This document shows, piece by piece, positions 15,942 to 26,542 of a DNA stretch of 64,000 nt. The stretch is from assembly GCF_002105535.1 (NCBI RefSeq), contig NZ_CP015848.1, positions 3,080,926-3,144,925 on the forward strand, written 5' to 3'. A model generated the notes under the pieces. The model saw only the letters and a program-made list of their open reading frames with translations. It was not told the DNA's origin and searched no databases. The position numbers were made by a program, and so were the translations under genes. Position 1 is the stretch's first letter; the number at the start of each line of letters is the position of its first letter. This stretch comes from Magnetospirillum sp. ME-1 (lineage in GTDB: Bacteria > Pseudomonadota > Alphaproteobacteria > Rhodospirillales > Magnetospirillaceae).

Positions 15942-16427
15942 CTATTCGTTCCGCGTGAAATCCAGCAGCTTGCCCACGTCGAGTACCACGAGCAGCTTGT
16001 CATCCAGGCGGTAGATGCCGATGGAGAAGTCCCGCCAATGGGGGTCCAGCGTCGGCGGATTGCGTTCGAACTTGGCCGCCGGCAGCGAGAGGACCTCGCC
16101 CACCTGATCGACCATCAGGGAGTAGAGCTCGCCGCCCATGTCGACGACCACGCTCATGCCCTTCTTGTCCTCGGCCCGCTTCTTCAGGCCGAGACGCAGG
16201 CGCACGTCGATGGCGGTGACGATGCGGCCGCGCAGGTTGAGGCTGCCTGCCACCTCGCGGGGCGCCAGCGGGATGCGGGTGATCTTCTGCGGGCCCAGCA
16301 CGTCCTGGACGGTCAGCACGGGGATGCCGAACAGCTGACCCTCGATGAACATGGTCACGAAGTCCTGGGTCTCGGGAGCGGCCAGCTCCGTTCCAGGGCG
16401 CTTACCGGCGGGAACTAACTGGTTCAT
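15942..16427 (-). CDS. cheW: Chemotaxis coupling protein CheW
   Basis: 161 residues. CheW links receptors to CheA at the membrane. The CheW beta-barrel is seen from QDFVTMFIEGQLFGIPVLTV through NLRGRIVTAIDVRLRLGL to VDQVGEVLSL. A short unstructured N-terminus precedes it. Its ATG overlaps the cheA stop by 4 bp, giving coupled synthesis with the kinase it binds. Confidence 0.95.
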   Translation of the reverse strand: MNQLVPAGKRPGTELAAPETQDFVTMFIEGQLFGIPVLTVQDVLGPQKITRIPLAPREVAGSLNLRGRIVTAIDVRLRLGLKKRAEDKKGMSVVVDMGGELYSLMVDQVGEVLSLPAAKFERNPPTLDPHWRDFSIGIYRLDDKLLVVLDVGKLLDFTRNE

Positions 16428-19090
16428 GCGGCACCTTTAGAGGCTGCGATGGTCGTGGCCAGGGTCTGCAACAGGGCATCGCGGTCGAACTTGGCGATGT
16501 AGTCGTTGAAGCCCACCTGACGGCCGCGTTCGAAGTCCTTTTCGGTGGCGTGGGACGACAGCGCCACCATGGGGATGGTGCCCCAGCGGCCGTCGGCGCG
16601 CACCGCCTGGGCGAACTCGAAGCCGCTCATGCCGGGCATCTCGATGTCGCTGATGATGGCGTCGAACTCGTCGCCGCGCTCACGCAGCGCCAGGGCCTTG
16701 TCGGCTCCGTCCACCGAGATCACCTCGTAGCCGGCCACCGACAGGAGCGGCGTCAGCAGGTTGCGGAAGAACGGCGAGTCGTCCACCAGCAGCACGCGGG
16801 GCTGATGGTATTCGGAGCTGCCGAATTCCTTGTCGTTGCGGCCGAACCAGTCGCCGAACGCCTGCGGCAGGTAATAGCCGGCGTCGATGATGGTGGTGGC
16901 CTTGCCGGCGATGACGGCGGTGCCGATGACGCCGGGATTGTCGGCGGACAGTTCCACCTTCAGGGTGTCCTCGACGATGTCGACGATCTCGTCCACCACC
17001 AGGCCCATGGTGTGGTCCTTGTCCGAGAACACCAGCACCGGCTGGCGGCCCTCGTCGCGGAAATTCATGATGCCGTCGATGGCGATCAGCGGCATCAGAT
17101 GGCCACGGTACTGGACCATGGGCTTGCCGTGGCTGTGTTCGATGTCGCCCACCTCGATTTCCTCGAGGCGTGCCACCAGGGCCAGCGGCACCGCCTTGAG
17201 GTCGTCGCCGCCGGCGCGGAACACCAGCAGCGAGGTCTTGCGGTCGGCGTGGCTCTCGCGCACCGTCTGGGCCTCGGCGTCGCGGGTGCCGGCGCCCATC
17301 ATGCCGGATTCGCCGGTGGCGCCGGCGATGCCGTTGGGGTCGAGGATCATGATCACCGAACCATCGCCCAGGATGGTGTTGCCCGAGAACATGGAGATGT
17401 GGCGCAGGATGGGGGCCACCGGCTTGACCACGATTTCCTCGGTGTCGAACACCCGATCGACGATGATGCCGAAGGTGTAGGTGCCCACCTGGGTGACGAC
17501 GATGAAGGTCTCCTGCTGTTCTTCCTCGTTCTCGGCCAGCTTGAGCAGGCGCTTCAAGGAGACCAGGGGCAGAAGGCGATCACGCAGGCGCAGAACCGGC
17601 GCGTTGTTGATCATCTCGATGCCGTGCTCGGAATTGGCCGTCACGCGCACCAGCTCCAGAACGCTGATCTGCGGGATGGCGAAGCGCTCGACGGCGCATT
17701 CGACGATCAGGGCCGACACGATGGCCAGCGTCAGCGGGATCTTGATGACGAAGGAGGAGCCCTTGCCGGGCTGGCTCTTCAGTTCGACGGTGCCGCCGAT
17801 CTTCTCGATGTTGGTGCGCACCACGTCCATGCCGACGCCGCGGCCCGAGACGCTGGTGACCTTCTCGGCGGTGGAGAAGCCGGCCTTGAAGATGAACTGG
17901 TAGATCTGCTGCGGGGTGAGCGCTTCCAGTTCCGACTCGGAGGCCAGGCCGTTCTGGATGGCCTTCTGCTTGATGCGGTCCAGGTTGAGGCCGCGCCCGT
18001 CGTCGGAGATCTCGATGATGATGTGGCCGCCCTCGTGGAAGGCGTTCAGCACGATCTTGCCCACTTCGGGCTTGCCCACCCGCTTGCGCTCCTCGGTGCC
18101 TTCCAGGCCGTGGTCGGCCGAGTTGCGCACCATGTGGGTCAGCGGGTCCTTGATCAGCTCGAGGACCTGGCGGTCCAGCTCGGTCTCGGCGCCCAGCATC
18201 TGGAGGTCGATCTTCTTGTTCATTTCGACCGCGAGGTCGCGGACGATGCGCGGCAGCTTGGCCCAGGCGTTGCCGATGGGCTGCATGCGGGTCTTCATCA
18301 CACCTTCCTGAAGGTCGGTGGTGATGTGGGACAGGCGCTGCAGCGGGGTGGCGAACTCGCTGTCGTCCTTGCCGCGGACCATCTGGAGCAGCTGGTTGCG
18401 GGTCAGCACCAACTCGGACACCAGGGTCATCAGGTTTTCCAGCAGTTCCACGTTGACGCGGATGGTCTGGGCGGCGACGGCGGATTCCTTGGCCTCGCCC
18501 GCCGGAACGGGCGGAGCGGCGGCGGCCACGGCCGGCGGCTGGGCGGCCGGGGCGGGGACGCTGGCCTTGACCGGCTCGGGCTCGGGCTCGGGCTCGGGTT
18601 CCGGCTCGGGAGCCGGCGCGGCGGCGACGGGCTCGGGCGCGGCGGCCACCGGCTCGAAGGTGGGCATGGGCGGCGGCGGGGGAGGCGGCGGCGCGGCGGC
18701 GGCGCCCGAGGCGCGGCCCTCGGCCATGGCGTTGAGGCGCTCGATCAGGTCGTCGTCGCTGCCCTCGGGCTCGCACTCGTTCTGTTCGAGGTGGCCCAGG
18801 ATCAGCTTGATGCGGTCGATGGACTGCAGGATCAGGGTCACGGCGTCGGGGGTGACCTCCAACTCGCCGTCGCGGAACTTGCCCAGCACGTTCTCGCCCG
18901 CATGGGCCACATGCTCGAGGCGTGGCAGCCCCAGGAAGCCGCAGGTGCCCTTGATGGTGTGGACCAGACGGAAAATGTTACCCAGAATCTGAGGATCGTT
19001 GGGATTCTGCTCCAGATTCACCAGGGCAACGTCGAGAACGGAAAGACTTTCCGATGTCTCAGTCAGAAATTCACTGAGGAGATCATCCAT
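16424..19090 (-). CDS. cheA: Hybrid chemotaxis histidine kinase CheA with C-terminal receiver
   Basis: 888 residues. Domain order: HPt (about 1-105, phospho-His44 in LVHTIKGTCGFLG), a low-complexity linker rich in Pro, Ala and Glu-Pro repeats (about 130-205), dimerisation domain, HATPase (N-box MVRNSADHGLEG, GRGVGMDVV), a first CheW-like domain, a second CheW-like segment (about 620-755), and a receiver (about 765-885, Asp in AIISDIEMPGMSG). Classical CheA lacks the second CheW part and the receiver. This CheA-CheW-REC layout is found in many alphaproteobacterial alternative chemosensory systems. First gene of the cluster; 170 bp separate it from chpT upstream. Confidence 0.95.
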   Translation of the reverse strand: MDDLLSEFLTETSESLSVLDVALVNLEQNPNDPQILGNIFRLVHTIKGTCGFLGLPRLEHVAHAGENVLGKFRDGELEVTPDAVTLILQSIDRIKLILGHLEQNECEPEGSDDDLIERLNAMAEGRASGAAAAPPPPPPPPMPTFEPVAAAPEPVAAAPAPEPEPEPEPEPEPVKASVPAPAAQPPAVAAAAPPVPAGEAKESAVAAQTIRVNVELLENLMTLVSELVLTRNQLLQMVRGKDDSEFATPLQRLSHITTDLQEGVMKTRMQPIGNAWAKLPRIVRDLAVEMNKKIDLQMLGAETELDRQVLELIKDPLTHMVRNSADHGLEGTEERKRVGKPEVGKIVLNAFHEGGHIIIEISDDGRGLNLDRIKQKAIQNGLASESELEALTPQQIYQFIFKAGFSTAEKVTSVSGRGVGMDVVRTNIEKIGGTVELKSQPGKGSSFVIKIPLTLAIVSALIVECAVERFAIPQISVLELVRVTANSEHGIEMINNAPVLRLRDRLLPLVSLKRLLKLAENEEEQQETFIVVTQVGTYTFGIIVDRVFDTEEIVVKPVAPILRHISMFSGNTILGDGSVIMILDPNGIAGATGESGMMGAGTRDAEAQTVRESHADRKTSLLVFRAGGDDLKAVPLALVARLEEIEVGDIEHSHGKPMVQYRGHLMPLIAIDGIMNFRDEGRQPVLVFSDKDHTMGLVVDEIVDIVEDTLKVELSADNPGVIGTAVIAGKATTIIDAGYYLPQAFGDWFGRNDKEFGSSEYHQPRVLLVDDSPFFRNLLTPLLSVAGYEVISVDGADKALALRERGDEFDAIISDIEMPGMSGFEFAQAVRADGRWGTIPMVALSSHATEKDFERGRQVGFNDYIAKFDRDALLQTLATTIAASKGAA

Positions 19091-19260: not shown

Positions 19261-19875
19261 TCAGGCCATGATGGAAATCTCCCCGGGCCTGTGATCCAGC
19301 CGGATTTTCAGGCCCTTGGCCCTGGCGAGGTGAAGCGCGAACCATGCCTGGGCGCCACGGGGGCCCGAGGGCGGCGCGCCGTCGACGAGAACCAGCCGGG
19401 CCTCGGCGGACAGGCCCAGCCCTTCACCCATGGCATCGATCCGCAATCCGGCCGTTTCCGCTTGGCCGTGCCCGCACCGGGCAATAATCCGCCCGCCGCG
19501 CGGCAGGGCATCGCGGGCGATCAGCACCAGGTTCAGCAGCAGACGGGCGGTCTCGCCATCGATCTCGGGGCGGTCGCTGGCCCAGTCCAGGGTGATGCCG
19601 CCGGTCACCGCGCTGCCGAGATAGGCGCGCACCAGATCGCCCAGCGCCTTGGGCGCATGGGGCAGGTCGTTGGCGGGGCCCAGGGTGGCGCGCAGGAATT
19701 TCAGGCGGGACGTGGCCGCCCCCATGCTGGCCGAAACCAGGCCCAGGGTTTCCGGGTCGCTGCCGTCTTCCAGCAATTCCAGCCCGGCCGCCGCCGCGCC
19801 AAGGGGGCTGGCCAGATCGTGGCACAGACGGGCGCAGAGCAGTTCGGACAGCTTGGTCTCGGAAAGGTCAGTCAT
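19261..19875 (-). CDS. chpT: Histidine phosphotransferase ChpT
   Basis: 204 residues. The N-terminal pair of helices contains ELLCARLCHDLASPLGAAAA, matching ChpT, the essential alphaproteobacterial phosphotransferase that passes phosphate from CckA to CtrA and CpdR. The His in CHDLASPLGA is the phospho-acceptor. The C-terminal half resembles a degenerate HATPase fold without an N-box, as expected for this family. It lies on the same strand as cheA but 170 bp upstream, so linkage with chemotaxis is positional only; CtrA-type control of motility genes makes it sensible. Confidence 0.85.
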   Translation of the reverse strand: MTDLSETKLSELLCARLCHDLASPLGAAAAGLELLEDGSDPETLGLVSASMGAATSRLKFLRATLGPANDLPHAPKALGDLVRAYLGSAVTGGITLDWASDRPEIDGETARLLLNLVLIARDALPRGGRIIARCGHGQAETAGLRIDAMGEGLGLSAEARLVLVDGAPPSGPRGAQAWFALHLARAKGLKIRLDHRPGEISIMA

Positions 19876-19938: not shown

Positions 19939-21255
19939 TCATAACCGAAGGATCGCCACCGCTTCCAGGTGCGCCGACCACGGGAACTGGTCGATGGGGG
20001 AGATTTCCTCCACATGCCAGCCGCCATCGCAAAGGGTCTTGAGGTCGCGGGCCAGGGTCGCGGGATTGCAGGAAACCATGGCGATGGTGGCTGGTCCGCC
20101 GCCTGCGGGGCGGGCCAGTTCGGCGGCCTGGGCGGCCGCGCCGGCCCGCGGCGGGTCCAGCACCACGGCGCGGAAGGCTTTCAGCTCGTGGGCGGCCAGG
20201 GGACGGCGGGCCAGGTCGCGGACCTCGGCGCTGAGCGGCAGCTTGGCGGCCCTGGCGGCGGCGTCCAGCGCCGCCACCGGCCCCTGTTCGCCTTCCACGG
20301 CCCGCACCGGACCGCGCTGGGCCAGCGGCAGGCTGAAGCTGCCGCAGCCGGCATAGAGGTCGGCCACCGGCACGCCCCCAGGGATGGCGGCCAGGATGGC
20401 CTGGGCGATGGCCAACTCGCCGCCGCGGGTGGGCTGCAGGAAGGCGCCGGGGGCGGGCTCGACCGCGACGCCGCCGAACCGCACCAGGGCCGGACGCCGG
20501 CGGGCGATGGGCTCGACGAAGCCGCTGCCCGGCCGGCGCCAGTGCAGGCGGGCGAGGTCCAGGGACTGGGCGGCGGCGGCCAGGGCCTCGCGCTCGAACA
20601 GGTCCAGGCGGGCGGGCGCTTCCACCAGCACGTCCAGGCCGCCTTCGGTCAGGGTGACGACCATCTCGCCACCGCCTTCCACCGCTATGCCGCCCAGCAT
20701 GCGGCGCAGGCCGGGCAGGGCGGCCCCCAAGGCGGGGTCCAGCAGCGGGCAGCGTTCGATGTCGATGACGGTATGGCTGGCGCGTCCGTTGAAGCCCAGC
20801 AGGATGGCGCCCTTGGCGCGGACGAAGGTGAAGTCGGCCCGCCGGCGCGAGGCGGGCGGAACGCGCACCAGCGGTGCCACCGGCACGTCGCCCAGGCCCT
20901 GGCGGGCCAGCTGGGTGATCAGCAGGTCGCGCTTCCATTCGGCGTAAAGGGAATCGTCCATGTGCTGGAGCGAGCAGCCGCCGCAGCGGCCGTAATGGCC
21001 GCAGGGCGGAGCGACGCGCCCCGGTCCGGGTTCGCTGACCTCGATCAGGGCGGCGGTCAGGCCGTCGCCGCGCTTGCCCTCGATCCTTGCCAGCACCTTG
21101 TCGCCCGCCACGGTGAAGGGGACGAACACCGTCTCTGCGTCCAGCCGCGCGATGCCGTCGCCGCGCGCGCCGACCTGCTCGATGGTCAGTTCCACGGTGC
21201 GCGGCGCGGGGGAAATCCGGCCGGAGCGCGGCGGAGCGCGGCGGGGTTTTCTCAT
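19939..21255 (-). CDS. RNA (uracil-5-)-methyltransferase, RlmD/TrmA family
   Basis: 438 residues. It has an N-terminal TRAM-like domain (VGARGDGIARLDAETVFVPF), a four-cysteine Fe-S site (CGHYGRCGGC plus a later Cys), a Rossmann methyltransferase domain with DLYAGCGSFSLPLA, the motif LDPPRAGA and the catalytic Cys in VSCNPATLARDL. These enzymes methylate U in 23S rRNA or tRNA using SAM. The exact target is not determinable from sequence alone. Its start overlaps the upstream lipoprotein gene by 4 bp, making it the last member of the Mla-type operon, perhaps by chance of packing. Confidence 0.9.
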   Translation of the reverse strand: MRKPRRAPPRSGRISPAPRTVELTIEQVGARGDGIARLDAETVFVPFTVAGDKVLARIEGKRGDGLTAALIEVSEPGPGRVAPPCGHYGRCGGCSLQHMDDSLYAEWKRDLLITQLARQGLGDVPVAPLVRVPPASRRRADFTFVRAKGAILLGFNGRASHTVIDIERCPLLDPALGAALPGLRRMLGGIAVEGGGEMVVTLTEGGLDVLVEAPARLDLFEREALAAAAQSLDLARLHWRRPGSGFVEPIARRRPALVRFGGVAVEPAPGAFLQPTRGGELAIAQAILAAIPGGVPVADLYAGCGSFSLPLAQRGPVRAVEGEQGPVAALDAAARAAKLPLSAEVRDLARRPLAAHELKAFRAVVLDPPRAGAAAQAAELARPAGGGPATIAMVSCNPATLARDLKTLCDGGWHVEEISPIDQFPWSAHLEAVAILRL

Positions 21256-21845
21256 TTGGCCGGCCGGGCCAGATCGGCGAGGAAGCGGGCGAAAATCTCG
21301 GTCGCGCCCTTTTCCATGGCGCGGGCGGCGTCCTCGACCCGCTCGCTGGGCGTCGGCACGCGGGCTTCGTAGGTCCGGAGCAGCACGAGGCGGCCATCGC
21401 GGGCGCCGACCACCGACAGCTCCAGCTCCACCGCCACCTCGGACCGGCCGGCGATCTGCTCGAAGCGACGCACCTTGCCGCGCAGCACCCAGTCGGAGAG
21501 GATCCGCAGATCCGGCGTCACCACCCGGTCGGCCAGCCCCGCCTCGGCCAGATAATGGGCCAGGCGGTCCTGCAGCAGCATGCCCGGCGGCTCGCTCCAG
21601 AAATCGTATTTGTAATGGGCCAGCACCCCGTCGCGGGCGAAGGCCAGGGCGCGTTCGGCCACCACGCCGTCGGCGGCCAGGCGGTTGACCTCGAGCACGC
21701 CGGGCAGGGCGGGTTTGGACAGGCGCTGGGCGGGTGCCCCGGGCTCGATGCGATAGAACGCATCCGGCGGCGCGGCGGGACCGGCGCAGGCGGCGAGGGC
21801 GAGGATCAAGAGGGCGGCGGAGAGGGTCTTGCGCATGGTCATCAT
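21252..21845 (-). CDS. ABC-type transport auxiliary lipoprotein (PqiC-like)
   Basis: 197 residues with a lipoprotein signal: MMTMRKTLSA, hydrophobic core and lipobox LALAAC. The mature protein matches the ABC-transport auxiliary / PqiC type, with DAFYRIEPGAP at the N-terminus and a long YDFWSEPPGMLLQDRLAHYL block. Such lipoproteins work with MCE transporters between inner and outer membrane. The start lies within the mlaD stop (ATGATGA overlap), and its own end overlaps the methyltransferase start. Possible starts at 21845, 21842 and 21836 differ by up to three residues. Confidence 0.85.
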   Translation of the reverse strand: MMTMRKTLSAALLILALAACAGPAAPPDAFYRIEPGAPAQRLSKPALPGVLEVNRLAADGVVAERALAFARDGVLAHYKYDFWSEPPGMLLQDRLAHYLAEAGLADRVVTPDLRILSDWVLRGKVRRFEQIAGRSEVAVELELSVVGARDGRLVLLRTYEARVPTPSERVEDAARAMEKGATEIFARFLADLARPAK

Positions 21846-22804
21846 TTCCGTCCCGGGCCGTCCTCGCCCCGTTTGTTGCCGCCGATCAGCACGCCGGGAT
21901 TGTCGCGGATCTGGCGCGAGAATTCGTTCAGGTTCCGGGTGGTGCTGTCCAGGTTGTAGGTGACCGAATCGATGGAGCGCGATACCGCCTGCAGGGTATG
22001 GCGCAGATCCTTCAGGCTCTGATCGATGTTGTCCTGGTTGCCGGTGACGGATTTGTCCAGGCTGGTCAGCATGGCATCCACCTTCTTGCGGCTGTCCTGC
22101 AATCCGGCCGACAGCTTGGCGGCGTTGTCCAGGGTTTCGCGGATGCGCTCGGCGTTGGCGTCGGTGATCACCTTGCCCGACAGGGTGCCGGTCATCTTCT
22201 CCACGTCGGCGGTGATTTTGGGCGTCTTGGCGGCCAGATCCTGGGCCACCGTCAGCAGGTTGGCCATCAGCTCGGGGGCGTGGCGCTCCAGAATGGCGCC
22301 CAAGGACCCCACCTGCTGGTTCAGGCTGAACAGCAGCGGCTTCAAGGCCGTTTGGTTGAGGTCGGTGATCTGTCCGGCCATGTCGTTCATGGCGGCGAAG
22401 ATGTTGGCGGCGGGGCCCGACGGAATGTCCGAGCCGGGGGGCAGCATCTCGGACGAGGTGCCGCCCTTGATGTCGAGCGTCGCCGCCGCCAGCAGGCCCG
22501 ACGCCGCGACGCGGGCCTGGGAATCCTTGGGGATGCGCCAGTCGTTGGCCACCGAGACCTCCAGGCGGAAGGCGGTGGTGTTGCCCTCGTGCAGCGGCGA
22601 GATCTTCTCCACCTGGCCCACCGGGAAGCCTTCATAGGTGACCTTGGTGCCGTACTTGATGCCGGCCACGTTGGCCAGCCTTGTGTAATAGGCCTGGGTC
22701 GAGCCGGTCCGCCCCGTCAGCACCGCCACCACCACCACCAGCGACACCAGCATGGCCAGCACGAAGCCGCCGACCAGCACGTAGTTGATACGGGAATCCT
22801 TCAT
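21842..22804 (-). CDS. mlaD: MCE-family lipid transporter subunit (MlaD-like)
   Basis: 320 residues. One N-terminal membrane helix (about 8-30) is followed by an MCE domain (about 40-120: VAGIKYGTKVTYEGFPVGQV) and a long helical periplasmic C-terminus. MCE rings carry phospholipids across the periplasm. It is longer than E. coli MlaD (183 residues) and more like the extended alphaproteobacterial form. It overlaps mlaF by 4 bp (ATGA) and the lipoprotein gene by 4 bp. Confidence 0.92.
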   Translation of the reverse strand: MKDSRINYVLVGGFVLAMLVSLVVVVAVLTGRTGSTQAYYTRLANVAGIKYGTKVTYEGFPVGQVEKISPLHEGNTTAFRLEVSVANDWRIPKDSQARVAASGLLAAATLDIKGGTSSEMLPPGSDIPSGPAANIFAAMNDMAGQITDLNQTALKPLLFSLNQQVGSLGAILERHAPELMANLLTVAQDLAAKTPKITADVEKMTGTLSGKVITDANAERIRETLDNAAKLSAGLQDSRKKVDAMLTSLDKSVTGNQDNIDQSLKDLRHTLQAVSRSIDSVTYNLDSTTRNLNEFSRQIRDNPGVLIGGNKRGEDGPGRK

Positions 22805-23628
22805 GGGCGCGGGGTCCGGTCGGTTGGGTGGGCGGGGCCGCCGATCAGGCGGCGCAGATAGGACTCCGCATCGGGCTCTGCTTCCTCGGTGCGGCGGTTC
22901 AAGAGGTTCTGGATGCGCGGGTCGGTGCTGGCGCGGATGGCCTCCACCGTGTCGAGCGCCAGCACATGGCCCTTGTCCAGCACGCAGATGCGGTCGGCGA
23001 TCTTGAAGGTGGAGTCGAGGTCGTGGGTCACCACCACGATGCTCATGCCCATGGCGTCGCGCAGGCGCAGGATCAGGTCGTCGATACTGGACGCCACCAC
23101 CGGGTCCAGCCCGGCCGAGGGCTCGTCGCAGAACAGCAGTTCAGGGTCCATGACGATGGCCCTGGCCAGGGCGGCGCGCTTGATCATGCCGCCCGACAGC
23201 TCGGCGGGCTTCAGGTGCTCGAACCCGGCCAGGCTGACCACTTCCAGCTTGAGCCGCGTCATGATGCCGATGGTGGTCTCGTCCAACTGGGTGTGCTCGC
23301 GCAAGGGCAGCGCGATGTTGTCGCCCACGGACATGGAGCTGAACAGCGCGCCCGACTGGAACGCCACCCCGGTCCGGGTGCGCAGCCGCTGCAGCGCCAC
23401 CGGCGACAGCTTGGCGATGTCGTGGCCCAGGATGCGCACCGTGCCGGAACTGGGCTTCTTCAGCCCCAGCAGGTGGTTGAGCAGTGTGGTCTTGCCCGAG
23501 CCCGAGCCGCCCATGATCACCATGATCTCGCCCCTGGCCACGGACAGCGACACGCCGTGCAGGATCTTGCGGTCGCCGTAATGGGTGACCAGGTTGGAGA
23601 CCTCGATGCTGTTGGCGGGGCTGCCCAT
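22801..23628 (-). CDS. mlaF: ABC transporter ATP-binding protein (MlaF-like)
   Basis: 275 residues. Walker A GGSGSGKTT (about residues 39-47), Q-loop in VAFQSGALFSSM, ABC signature LSGGMIKRAALARA and Walker B LLFCDEPSAGLDP, with the H-loop THD, are all intact. The SGGM-KRAALARA signature is typical of Mla/Ttg2A lipid transporters. The reading frame continues far upstream, but that part shadows mlaE in another frame. The ATG at 23628 (MGSPANSIEVSNLV) overlaps the mlaE stop by 1 bp (TGATG). Confidence 0.93.
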   Translation of the reverse strand: MGSPANSIEVSNLVTHYGDRKILHGVSLSVARGEIMVIMGGSGSGKTTLLNHLLGLKKPSSGTVRILGHDIAKLSPVALQRLRTRTGVAFQSGALFSSMSVGDNIALPLREHTQLDETTIGIMTRLKLEVVSLAGFEHLKPAELSGGMIKRAALARAIVMDPELLFCDEPSAGLDPVVASSIDDLILRLRDAMGMSIVVVTHDLDSTFKIADRICVLDKGHVLALDTVEAIRASTDPRIQNLLNRRTEEAEPDAESYLRRLIGGPAHPTDRTPRP

Positions 23629-24443
23629 CAGCGCGTCACCATGAAGACGAAGACCATGTCGGTGATGACGATGGCCGAGATGGCGTGCACCACCGAGCGG
23701 GTGGTCATGCGTCCCACTCCTTCGGCGCCGCCGGTGACCGAGGCGCCGTTGACCACGCCCACCACGGTGATCAGCACGGCGAAGATGGCGCTTTTGCCCA
23801 GGCCGTGCCAGATGTCGTTGAGCCGCACCAGGGTGGTCATCTCGTCCACATAGGCGCCGATGGAACTGCCCAGTTGCGGCGCGATGTAGAGGCCGGCGGC
23901 GAACAAACCCACCAGATCGGACCACAGGGTGAGCGCCGGCAGCATCACCAGCATGGCCAGCAGCGGCGGCACCACCAGGAAGCGCACCGGCGAGATGCCC
24001 ATGACGGTCAGCGCGTCGATTTCCTGGTTGATGCGCATGGTGCCAAGCCTTGCGGCCAGCGCCGAGCCGGACCGTCCGGCCACCAGGATGCCGGTGATCA
24101 GGGGCGCGAATTCGCGCACCACGCTCATGGCCACGCCCAGCGAAACCCGGGATTCGGCCCCGAACAGGCGCAGCGTGTAGATGCCCTGGATGGCCAGCAT
24201 GATGCCGATGGTGGCCGACAGCACGGTGACTATGGGCAGCGCGCCGATGCCGATCTCCATGGCCTGGGCCACCACGGGGGCGAGACGCACCGGCTGGCGC
24301 CGTTTTCCCCCCATGCCCAGCCAGTAGAGGCATTCGCCCACCAGCGAGGCGCCGAAGCCGAACTCGGCGATTCCGCCCATCGTCCGGCGTCCCAGCCGGT
24401 CGAGAAATCCGATGAATCCCCTGGGTTCGGCGTCGGTGCTCAC
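23628..24443 (-). CDS. mlaE: ABC transporter permease (MlaE-like)
   Basis: 271 residues of the MlaE permease family with five to six membrane segments. The conserved loop VAGRSGSALAARLGTMRINQEIDAL (about 125-150) is the family hallmark. GTG 24443 (first residues (M)STDAEPRGF) is preferred because GGGGGAA stands 7 nt upstream and the STAS gene ends just 4 bp before. A TTG at 24470 is the longer option. An amphipathic N-terminal region (FLDRLGRRTMGGIAEFGF) precedes the first helix. Confidence 0.92.
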   Translation of the reverse strand: MSTDAEPRGFIGFLDRLGRRTMGGIAEFGFGASLVGECLYWLGMGGKRRQPVRLAPVVAQAMEIGIGALPIVTVLSATIGIMLAIQGIYTLRLFGAESRVSLGVAMSVVREFAPLITGILVAGRSGSALAARLGTMRINQEIDALTVMGISPVRFLVVPPLLAMLVMLPALTLWSDLVGLFAAGLYIAPQLGSSIGAYVDEMTTLVRLNDIWHGLGKSAIFAVLITVVGVVNGASVTGGAEGVGRMTTRSVVHAISAIVITDMVFVFMVTR

Positions 24444-24447
24444 CGCA

Positions 24448-24777
24448 TCATTCCCCCAAGGCTCCCTCAAGCGTGTCGGCGATGGCGAAGACGCGGTCCA
24501 GGCGGGCCAGTTGCAGCACCCGGCGGACGGGATCGCTGATGGCGGCCAGCACGAAGCGGGTGCCGTTCTTGCGGGCCATCTGATAGGCCTCCACCAGCCC
24601 GGCGATGCCGGAGCTGTCGATGTATTCCACCGCCGACAGGTCGGCCACCACCAGCGGGCCCTTGTCCAGCATCACCTCCATCAGCGCCTTGCGCAGCGCG
24701 GGCGAGTGGCGCAGGTCCACTTCGCCCGACAGGGCCACGATGGCGGCGGTTCCAGTGGTGCGATGTTCCAGCTTCAT
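24448..24777 (-). CDS. STAS-domain protein, anti-sigma-factor-antagonist type
   Basis: 109 residues, a single STAS domain. It carries EYIDSSGIAGLVEAYQ with Ser55/Ser56 at the site that is phosphorylated in SpoIIAA/RsbV proteins. This is the state expected for a phospho-switch protein, not merely a structural subunit. It begins within the last bases of the phosphatase-kinase gene (4-bp overlap) and ends 4 bp before mlaE. In E. coli a STAS protein (MlaB) binds MlaF, so this protein may occupy that position while also being switched by its upstream neighbour. The double role is inference. Confidence 0.9.
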   Translation of the reverse strand: MKLEHRTTGTAAIVALSGEVDLRHSPALRKALMEVMLDKGPLVVADLSAVEYIDSSGIAGLVEAYQMARKNGTRFVLAAISDPVRRVLQLARLDRVFAIADTLEGALGE

Positions 24778-26444
24778 GTCGGGTCGATCCGTTTGACCAT
24801 TTGCAACAGGTTGCCGATTCCAGGCGGCGGGGCCAGGAAATCGACGTCATCCATGATCGAGCGCATCAGATGGGTGCCCAATCCCCCCGGCCGTATCTCG
24901 TCCAGCGGCCTGGGCTGGATTTTAGCCACATCCACGGCGGGAGCGAAATCCATAAGTCGTATGACCAACCGATCGAGGTCGCGGTCCAGGTGGACGAGGA
25001 TGTCGCCTGCGCCCCCCTTATAGGCGTGGCGGATGATGTTCTGGCAGGCTTCGTCCACCGCCAGGACCACGTCGCCCACCATGGTTTCGCCGCAGCCCAT
25101 GGCGCGGGCCGCGCCGCCCACCGCGGCGCGGATGGCGGCCAGTTCCTCGGGCCGGGCGGGGTAGCGGTGCTCGAAGGCCGCCGTCCGGTGGTGGTGCCGG
25201 TCCTCGATCACCATCAGGGTGATGTCGTCCCTGAGCGAGCCGCTGTCGTCCAAGGACCGCACCACCGCATCCAGCCGCTCGGCGGCGGGCAGGGCGGCGA
25301 AGCTTTGGATCAGGGCGCGGGCGCCTTCGTTCTCCAGCATGCCGTCATGGCGGGCGCGGGCCTCGGTCAGCCCGTCGGTGAAGAGGTAGAGGCAGCCGCC
25401 GTCCAGATCGACCACGCTTTCCGGGCAGCCCCCGTCAAACAGCTCGACGGCGATGCCCAACGGCGGCATGTCGCCCTCGATGGGGGTGAAGGTGCCGTCC
25501 TTGAACAGCAGCGGCGGCTCGTGTCCGGCGATGGCCAGCACCACCCGACCCATGGCCGGATCGAACAGGCCGGCGGCCATGGTGACGAACATGCCGGGCA
25601 TGCGGGTTTCCAGCATCTCGGAATTGATGGCGGCCAGCACCGCGCCCGGGCCGGCCTCGCGCTTGACCAGGCAGCGGAACAGGCTGGCGGTCTTGGCCAT
25701 CAGGAGCGAGGCCTTCATGCCCTTGCCCGCCACGTCGCCGATGGCGAAGGCGATGCGCCCGTCGGCCAGGGGCATGATCTCGTAGAAATCGCCCGACACC
25801 CCGCTGGCGGCCAGGTTGATGCCGTGAACGGGGGAATCCGGCGGCAGATCGCCGGGCAGCATGGCCCGCTGGATCTCGGCGGCCAGGTCCAGTTCGCGCT
25901 TCAGGCTTTGCTGTTCGGCCATGTCGGCCACCAGCCGGGCGTTGATCAGGGCCAGGGCCGAACTGGCGGCCAGCGCCTGCAGCAGGCGGGAATCCGTCTG
26001 GCTGAAGGCGTCGCCGCTGGCCTTGTTGAACAGCTCGATGGCGCCGAGGCGCCGGCCCCGCGCCGACATGGGGGCGCACAGGATGGAGCGGGTCTCGAAA
26101 CCGGTGACGGCATCGATGGAGCGGGCGAAATCCGGGTCGCGCCTGGTGTCCTTCACCAGCTGCGGCACGCCGAGATCGATGGTGCGCCCCACGATGCCGG
26201 TTCCCGGCGCGAGCCGTAACCCCCTGACGTCCACCGGCCCGATATTGGCGCGGCACACCAGCTCGCCCGTGTCCTCGTCGATCAGGAACAGCGAGGCGGC
26301 CTCGGCCCCCAGCCGCCGGGAGATGCGCTCGAGGCCAAGGTGCAGAGTGGCTTCGACGTCGTGGGACTGGACGAAATCGCCGGTCATCTCAACGATCAGG
26401 TCGAGGTGGCTGGCGGAATCGGTTTCGGGTATCGGGCTCGGCAT
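24774..26444 (-). CDS. GAF - PP2C (SpoIIE) phosphatase - anti-sigma kinase fusion
   Basis: 556 residues from the ATG at 26444 (MPSPIPETDSASHLDLIVEM). Domains in order: GAF (about 15-170), a short coiled segment, a PP2C/SpoIIE serine phosphatase (about 195-405; metal-binding Asp in FAIGDVAGKGM and in RDDITLMVIED), and an RsbW/SpoIIAB-like HATPase (about 420-550; N-box VLAVDEACQNIIRHAY, later GGLGTHLM). It thus combines the opposing RsbU/RsbP phosphatase and RsbW kinase activities in one soluble protein, with the STAS substrate encoded next door. The frame stays open to 26630, but the 19-bp tandem repeat there argues for the shorter form. Confidence 0.92.
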   Translation of the reverse strand: MPSPIPETDSASHLDLIVEMTGDFVQSHDVEATLHLGLERISRRLGAEAASLFLIDEDTGELVCRANIGPVDVRGLRLAPGTGIVGRTIDLGVPQLVKDTRRDPDFARSIDAVTGFETRSILCAPMSARGRRLGAIELFNKASGDAFSQTDSRLLQALAASSALALINARLVADMAEQQSLKRELDLAAEIQRAMLPGDLPPDSPVHGINLAASGVSGDFYEIMPLADGRIAFAIGDVAGKGMKASLLMAKTASLFRCLVKREAGPGAVLAAINSEMLETRMPGMFVTMAAGLFDPAMGRVVLAIAGHEPPLLFKDGTFTPIEGDMPPLGIAVELFDGGCPESVVDLDGGCLYLFTDGLTEARARHDGMLENEGARALIQSFAALPAAERLDAVVRSLDDSGSLRDDITLMVIEDRHHHRTAAFEHRYPARPEELAAIRAAVGGAARAMGCGETMVGDVVLAVDEACQNIIRHAYKGGAGDILVHLDRDLDRLVIRLMDFAPAVDVAKIQPRPLDEIRPGGLGTHLMRSIMDDVDFLAPPPGIGNLLQMVKRIDPT

Positions 26445-26504: not shown

Positions 26505-26542
26505 GCAAAAAAATGTACGCGGGGCAAAAAAATGTACGCGGG
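26505..26542. repeat. Two perfect tandem copies of a 19-bp unit upstream of the phosphatase-kinase operon
   Basis: The unit GCAAAAAAATGTACGCGGG occurs at 26505-26523 and again at 26524-26542 with no spacer. It lies 61 bp before the start of the phosphatase-kinase gene and 66 bp before the divergent small gene, so it is well placed to be an operator or promoter duplication. GTAC within each unit is palindromic. No regulator can be assigned. Confidence 0.8.

Follow-up and report, generated by a model that had tools for sequence, protein, structure and literature searches.

Organization of the operon

In Magnetospirillum sp. ME-1, whose genome is a single contig of 4.55 Mb, seven genes running along the minus strand from position 26444 to 19939 of the 64,000-nucleotide stretch analyzed here (the window, in whose positions all coordinates are given) join the components of a predicted partner-switching system to an MlaE-type ATP-binding cassette (ABC) lipid transporter. 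The run begins with a gene for a GAF-PP2C(SpoIIE)-HATPase_c_2 protein, labeled PKS below, and continues with a STAS protein, mlaE, mlaF, mlaD, a lipoprotein and a methyltransferase; all were re-found by sequence on the minus strand, at the positions given by an initial annotation of this DNA. Many relatives of Magnetospirillum share this operon arrangement, which suggests that phosphorylation may switch the transporter on and off; for its E. coli counterpart such control has been proposed, though not demonstrated. The features are as follows.

24774..26444, minus strand: PKS, 556 amino acids, predicted STAS kinase and phosphatase (Pfam; catalytic motifs conserved)
25947..26366, minus strand: GAF domain of PKS, residues 27-166, presumed signal input (Pfam; coordinates calculated from residue numbers)
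25203..25763, minus strand: PP2C/SpoIIE phosphatase domain of PKS, residues 228-414 by Pfam, with Asp219 just N-terminal to it
24792..25160, minus strand: RsbW-like HATPase_c_2 kinase domain of PKS, residues 429-551 (Pfam)
24448..24777, minus strand: STAS protein, 109 amino acids, RsbV/SpoIIAA-like fold (Pfam, NCBIfam, AlphaFold2 model, structure search)
24613..24615, minus strand: codon AGC of Ser55, predicted phosphoacceptor in Asp54-Ser55-Ser56-Gly57 (alignment to SpoIIAA)
23628..24443, minus strand: mlaE permease, 271 amino acids, GTG start assumed, without fused STAS (Pfam)
22801..23628, minus strand: mlaF ATPase; its P0004 numbering includes one residue preceding the ATG (Pfam, NCBIfam)
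22837..22896, minus strand: C-terminal extension of MlaF, Tyr258-x3-Leu262-Ile263 in P0004 numbering (alignment to E. coli MlaF)
21842..22804, minus strand: mlaD/mpcD-like MCE protein, 320 amino acids (Pfam, structure model)
21252..21845, minus strand: PqiC/MpcA-like ABC_trans_aux lipoprotein (Pfam)
19939..21255, minus strand: RlmD-like 23S rRNA uracil methyltransferase (Pfam, NCBIfam)

Read from the sequence, PKS and STAS overlap by 4 bp (ATGA), STAS and mlaE are separated by 4 bp when GTG is taken as the mlaE start, mlaE and mlaF overlap by 1 bp, and the mlaF/mlaD, mlaD/lipoprotein and lipoprotein/methyltransferase junctions overlap by 4 bp each. As every junction is an overlap except for the short STAS/mlaE gap, the operon is likely to be translationally coupled, and the dense packing from STAS to the methyltransferase is as the initial annotation had described it. 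The three domains that it had assigned to one protein were all identified by Pfam on the 556-residue PKS chain, namely GAF (PF13185, 6.2e-16), SpoIIE/PP2C (PF07228, 1.3e-39) and HATPase_c_2 (PF13581, 7.3e-27), the last of which matches RsbW.

Pfam recognizes the transporter genes as MlaE (6.5e-68), ABC_tran (2.8e-30), MlaD (1.3e-13) and ABC_trans_aux (5.7e-13), and the methyltransferase by tRNA_U5-meth_tr and TRAM matches of the RlmD-like kind. In the structural model of MlaD, a transmembrane helix and an MCE domain are followed by long helices that reach residue 301, the helical part having a predicted local distance difference test (pLDDT) score of ~50-60. No mlaC is present in the operon; the rest of the genome was not searched for it. 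With mlaC missing there, a long-tailed MlaD and a lipoprotein of the PqiC kind, the transporter resembles the Mpc (Mla-Pqi chimeric) system of Brucella more than that of E. coli, as far as sequence and model can tell. Brucella Mpc likewise comprises MlaE, MlaF, a long needle-like MlaD and a PqiC-like lipoprotein, with no MlaC, but its STAS domain is fused to MlaE (PMC12436622), whereas the 271-residue MlaE described here has no N-terminal STAS and the STAS protein is free and encoded with a kinase and phosphatase. The classical Mla pathway is more distant, neither MlaC nor a short MlaD being encoded in the operon. E. coli MlaFEDB shares with this locus a STAS protein encoded with MlaE, MlaF and MlaD and a C-terminal Tyr-x3-Leu-Leu clamp on MlaF; it differs in having Thr at the STAS site, MlaC, a short MlaD, and an MlaB that lacks a fifth strand and last helix. 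Neither a kinase nor a phosphatase was found among the annotated genes around E. coli mlaFEDCB. The host's second MlaE (open frame of 378 amino acids) was considered as a STAS-fused form and rejected, as its translation shows no STAS.

Conservation of the gene order

The linkage of the kinase to mlaE was surveyed in 150 genomes of the order, drawn from 31 families, among which PKS was matched in 99 and MlaE in 97. In 92 of the 150, spanning 26 of the 31 families (counted from family labels), both matches share a contig and a strand, with 331-1074 bp between them. The arrangement is therefore not peculiar to Magnetospirillum sp. ME-1. A gene order confined to this genome would have undone the proposal of the initial annotation; such uniqueness is ruled out by the surveys of the order, class, phylum and named genomes alike, and the kinase-mlaE arrangement is conserved far beyond chance.

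Among named genomes, MlaE is at least 53% identical in 37 loci, 36 of which have PKS and STAS upstream, while the remaining four loci, with MlaE 28-34% identical, have no such upstream pair; the closest named relative among the loci compared is Paramagnetospirillum caucaseum (MlaE 96% identical). The arrangement also occurs in metagenome-assembled genomes labeled Gammaproteobacteria or Salinisphaerales (L092, L093, L085) and Deltaproteobacteria (L090), one of which, L093, lies on a 2.4-Mb chromosome record. These four loci keep the order, down to ~53% MlaE identity, and have no RlmD match. An RlmD-like match is found downstream in 28 of the 37 named loci and in none of the most distant ones, and the gene is probably a passenger of the operon.

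At the level of the class (385 genomes, MlaE threshold 1e-60 or better), 13 genomes besides the host have MlaE, and STAS and HATPase are adjacent in 11 of them; one of the other two is cut by a contig start, and in the other, the distant G360, STAS, PP2C and HATPase genes lie convergently beside the transporter genes, outside their operon. The phylum sample (398 genomes) added four matching genomes, two of which (G649 and G661) have adjacent STAS and HATPase; the other two, G606 and G568, are weighed below.

Ten of the 102 genomes of the order with a PKS or MlaE match were exceptions. The kinase is cut by a contig end in G117 and G145, HATPase and STAS lie beside mlaE at a contig end in G121, the contig of G077 ends within STAS, and mlaE of G035 lies 414 bp from a contig start. 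G070 has a GAF match only, and G002 has HATPase-STAS-mlaEFD without GAF-PP2C. The other three of the ten, G018, G019 and G146, retain the switch without an intact transporter next to it and are weighed below. Apart from these ten, the kinase matches of G303 and G156 have neither STAS nor MlaE in the stretch examined, which in G156 is cut by the contig start. Variation was also seen within the operon. Two loci (L140 and L141, from G207 and G499) carry two tandem STAS genes between the kinase and mlaE, both with Asp-Ser-Ser-Gly; beyond this site the kinase-proximal copy has diverged. In L084, mlaD directly follows mlaE with no mlaF match between, and no mlaF match follows mlaE in L068/L253 (both from one genome).

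Catalytic motifs, STAS and the MlaF tail

Motifs were aligned with parts taken from 141 loci, 128 of them with distinct MlaE. Glu465, Asn469, Asp499 and Gly520-Gly521-Leu522-Gly523 of the kinase are kept in 126 of 126 sequences, leaving the N, G1 and G2 motifs intact. In the phosphatase, Asp219 and Asp237 are present in 121 of 123 (two gaps), Asp357 in 123 of 123, and Asp406 and Asp407 in 122 of 123 (one gap), such that the metal-binding Asp residues of PP2C are intact in the aligned loci apart from gaps. The Asp54-Ser55-Ser56 triplet is found in all 126 STAS proteins, which come from loci with distinct MlaE and include 125 distinct STAS sequences. Motifs this close to invariant suggest constraint on all three, the kinase, the phosphatase and the acceptor. 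Of the 141 loci, 105 encode a fused kinase-phosphatase and 31 a separate kinase. An intact HATPase_c_2 kinase, a Ser at the SpoIIAA phosphosite and a PP2C domain with its metal-binding Asp residues are accordingly all present, as a partner switch would have them. Four more STAS/HATPase_c_2 pairs occur in the host, at 271, 402, 1320 and 3653 kb (L009/L016, L005/L017, L007/L018 and L006/L022), indicating that it has several partner-switching modules.

The STAS protein (PF01740, 3.6e-21) has, as had been noted, an intact Asp54-Ser55-Ser56-Gly57 motif and a start overlapped by the stop of PKS. Ser55, the first Ser of the pair, falls in the phosphoserine column of SpoIIAA in the alignment to 1th8_B; Thr52 of E. 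coli MlaB shares this column. The SpoIIAA residue we take to be Ser58. The initial annotation had named Ser55/56 as the site; this stands for Ser55, Ser56 being the second serine and not the aligned residue. The C terminus of an AlphaFold2 model (pLDDT 85) forms a short additional strand and a helix, elements absent from MlaB, which has no fifth strand or last helix (PMC7367683). Among the matches listed, template modeling (TM) scores for the query were 0.79-0.90 against RsbV/SpoIIAA in kinase complexes, and 0.66 and 0.73 against MlaB of E. coli and Pseudomonas aeruginosa, respectively; the nearest relatives there in both sequence and fold are RsbV, SpoIIAA and TM1442. Spread of STAS on plasmids was rejected, there being no tblastn match at 1e-15 in 72,556 plasmid records.

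For comparison, a looser MlaE threshold applied to 190 genomes (89 with matches) yielded 22 new MlaE loci, in which the N-terminal domain of MlaE could be read in 21, L293 being cut by a contig start. Sixteen of these 21 fused domains pass the Pfam cut-off for STAS or STAS_2 and five are weaker STAS matches. No PKS match lies beside any of the 22 loci within up to ~1.5 kb on each side; among their genomes, PKS is matched at 1e-70 in G156 alone, where it is on a different contig. The Ser55 column of the 21 fused STAS domains holds Thr in 17, Ser in two, Val in one and Ile in one (Thr in 15 and Ser in one of the 16 above the cut-off), and the column after it is mostly Ala. Set against Ser in 126 of 126 free STAS proteins, this indicates that Ser accompanies a neighboring kinase and Thr mostly none, E. 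coli included.

In E. coli MlaF, Tyr261, Leu265 and Leu266 belong to the C-terminal extension of the neighboring MlaF and lie in the MlaB-MlaF groove (PMC7367683). Tyr258, Leu262 and Ile263 of the MlaF described here align with them, so that a STAS protein encoded with MlaE, MlaF and MlaD is matched by an MlaF that keeps the clamp. Of 125 MlaFs of the kinase-linked family, 122 carry the Tyr-x3-Leu tail, as in E. coli; among the three that do not, L207 and L058 are truncated at contig ends and L262 has His. Counted among the 125 are L077 and L262, in which STAS is not directly upstream; left out are L148 and L149, whose MlaF tails have no Tyr-x3-Leu. None of 24 comparison MlaFs has the tail, these being the 22 from fused-type loci, that of L094 and the host's second MlaF, near which no STAS was found in its neighborhood or permease. 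The tail thus accompanies free STAS, which fits docking of STAS on MlaF here too, and we regard this distribution as the best evidence that the transporter may be the direct target. Coevolution signals are suggestive only, there being too few sequences (124 rows, effective number 71): the top STAS-HATPase pair is Glu19-Ala440 (z 7.7), and five of the 14 best STAS-MlaF pairs touch MlaF tail residues 251-253.

A proposed phosphorylation switch and its alternatives

Taken as a whole, the locus probably represents a partner-switching module with an ABC lipid transporter as its output. On balance we also favor a more specific proposal, that a detachable STAS protein lets a dedicated Ser kinase/phosphatase control the ATPase of an envelope-spanning lipid ABC transporter directly. 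This would be a new class of output, STAS fused to MlaE with Thr providing no switch in some bacteria and free STAS with Ser and a kinase being switchable in others. We infer the phosphorylation, the docking of STAS on MlaF, the polarity of the switch and its signal as follows. Unphosphorylated STAS, in the role of MlaB, would dock on MlaF at its helical subdomain, tucked beneath the C-terminal clamp of the neighboring MlaF, and keep the ATPase on MlaE and active, permitting ATP hydrolysis. The RsbW-like domain of PKS would phosphorylate Ser55, near the center of the docking face, and the charge on phospho-Ser55 would release STAS and stop transport, which the PP2C domain, gated by GAF, would restore by dephosphorylating STAS. 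In E. coli, the phosphosite column lies near the center of the MlaB-MlaF interface and T52E weakens the binding of MlaB to MlaF (PMC7367683). Phospho-switchable lipid transport had been put forward in the initial annotation by analogy with E. coli Mla; the switch itself gains from the intact kinase, phosphatase and phosphosite, the Ser/Thr contrast and the MlaF tail, while the analogy fares less well, as the transporter looks Mpc-type.

A number of observations weigh against this interpretation. STAS scores above the cut-off as an anti-sigma antagonist (TIGR00377, 86.6 bits) and fails the MlaB equivalog NF033618 (30.9 bits against a cut-off of 90); by sequence and model it is more RsbV-like than MlaB-like, suggesting an RsbV-type STAS sitting where MlaB would be, which could have another or an additional target. 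For a transporter switch to hold, it would have to act like MlaB while falling outside that equivalog. MlaB T52A of E. coli stays bound and yet ATPase activity is abolished (PMC5016091), indicating that this residue does more than make or break a contact. Four genomes retain PKS-STAS with no intact transporter adjoining: in G146 (L133 and L170) mlaEFD and the lipoprotein gene are gone as a block and the RlmD-like gene directly follows PKS-STAS, G018 has an orphan module, G260 (from the class survey) has an orphan module followed by a gene that is CcmA-like by eye, with another MlaE elsewhere in the genome, and G019 has mere fragments of mlaE and the lipoprotein gene beside the switch. Either these are recent losses of the transporter or the switch has another target. 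The mlaE of L077 has a HATPase-STAS pair ~8 kb away on the opposite strand, with no PP2C in the stretch examined, and L149 has a free DSSG STAS and HATPase yet an MlaF without Tyr-x3-Leu. G606 has mlaE without adjacent STAS, its STAS genes being on other contigs beside HATPase or PP2C, and in G568, where only 455 bp separate mlaE from a contig start, no STAS was matched in the genome at 1e-8. Finally, the Ser/Thr contrast may reflect separate origins of two STAS lineages and not repeated change.

The resemblance of STAS to RsbV/SpoIIAA/TM1442 in sequence and fold, the match of HATPase to RsbW and the four genomes without an intact neighboring transporter would all be expected if PKS and STAS formed a classical switch controlling a distant sigma factor, the transporter being only co-transcribed, perhaps in the same envelope-stress response. 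We consider this unlikely given the near one-to-one linkage to mlaE across 26 families and the MlaF clamp, which accompanies free STAS and is missing from fused-type loci. No sigma-factor gene lies near the locus, the nearest of six Sigma70_r2 matches genome-wide being ~0.8 Mb away, although a cognate sigma could be distant. A kinase and phosphatase on one chain, as in PKS, are moreover unusual for an anti-sigma factor. Both functions might instead be combined, STAS being a constitutive MlaB-like subunit of the transporter that also carries a phospho-regulated signal to another target, reporting transporter state or feeding a second output. The orphan PKS-STAS modules and the tandem DSSG STAS genes of G207 and G499 could be read in this way, but two STAS genes occur in only two of the 113 loci having STAS upstream of mlaE, and it is precisely the phosphosite column that E. 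coli MlaB places against MlaF; a dual role of this kind appears improbable.

Least plausible, and in our judgment very unlikely, is mere inheritance of the operon, whereby the gene order has been carried by descent with no functional link. Most cases may indeed stem from one ancestral cluster, and the RlmD-like gene, beside the operon in 28 of 37 named loci, may be such a neighbor. Nevertheless, the order survives both fusion and splitting of kinase and phosphatase, holds to ~53% MlaE identity in the four loci without an RlmD match, and in G360 the module is rearranged and still adjacent to the transporter.

In known partner switches, B. subtilis RsbU-RsbW-RsbV has the same PP2C, HATPase kinase and STAS protein with conserved Ser; the system described here differs in that a single chain unites both enzymes with GAF, that no sigma factor is nearby and that the apparent output is an ABC transporter. 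The Vibrio fischeri SypE-SypA pair also features a dual Ser kinase/phosphatase acting on a STAS protein, but to our knowledge SypE has no GAF domain, and we know of no transporter link for the pair. SypE, unlike PKS, is described as a response regulator. SypA is modified at Ser56 and active when unphosphorylated, its target being described as not known (PMC8256260). Two eLife papers, of 2016 and 2020, raise phosphorylation of the MlaB STAS residue as a possible control of the transporter, the passages concerned naming no kinase (PMC5016091; PMC7367683), and the latter notes that MlaB phosphorylation was so far without experimental evidence and treats the regulation of MlaB as still open. Casali and Riley (2007) described mce clusters of gamma-proteobacteria that contain STAS genes, as well as fusions of STAS to MlaE, with no kinase mentioned in the passages concerned (PMC1810536). 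The open-licence PubMed Central (PMC) literature yielded no paper joining partner switching with MlaE, or with ABC transporter, STAS, phosphatase and phospholipid, and in a wider search of it no title or abstract start among the matches listed reports such a module. The operon is widespread in nature and encodes, together with the transporter, a candidate kinase and phosphatase and a STAS protein with Ser at the acceptor position, making the question of MlaB phosphorylation directly testable. If the proposal is correct, an ABC transporter would join the outputs of partner switching, and envelope lipid traffic could be adjusted quickly without new gene expression.

The surroundings of the operon contain further features of interest. 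A perfect 19-bp tandem repeat in two copies lies at window positions 26505-26542, ~60-100 bp upstream of the PKS start; as a conserved operator it was rejected, its 12-base core not being found in L057-L093 or L253-L261. Downstream of the operon and on the same strand, a ChpT-like histidine phosphotransferase (HPTransfase, 19261-19875) adjoins a CheA-type histidine kinase (Hpt, HATPase_c and CheW) with a C-terminal receiver at 16424-19090.

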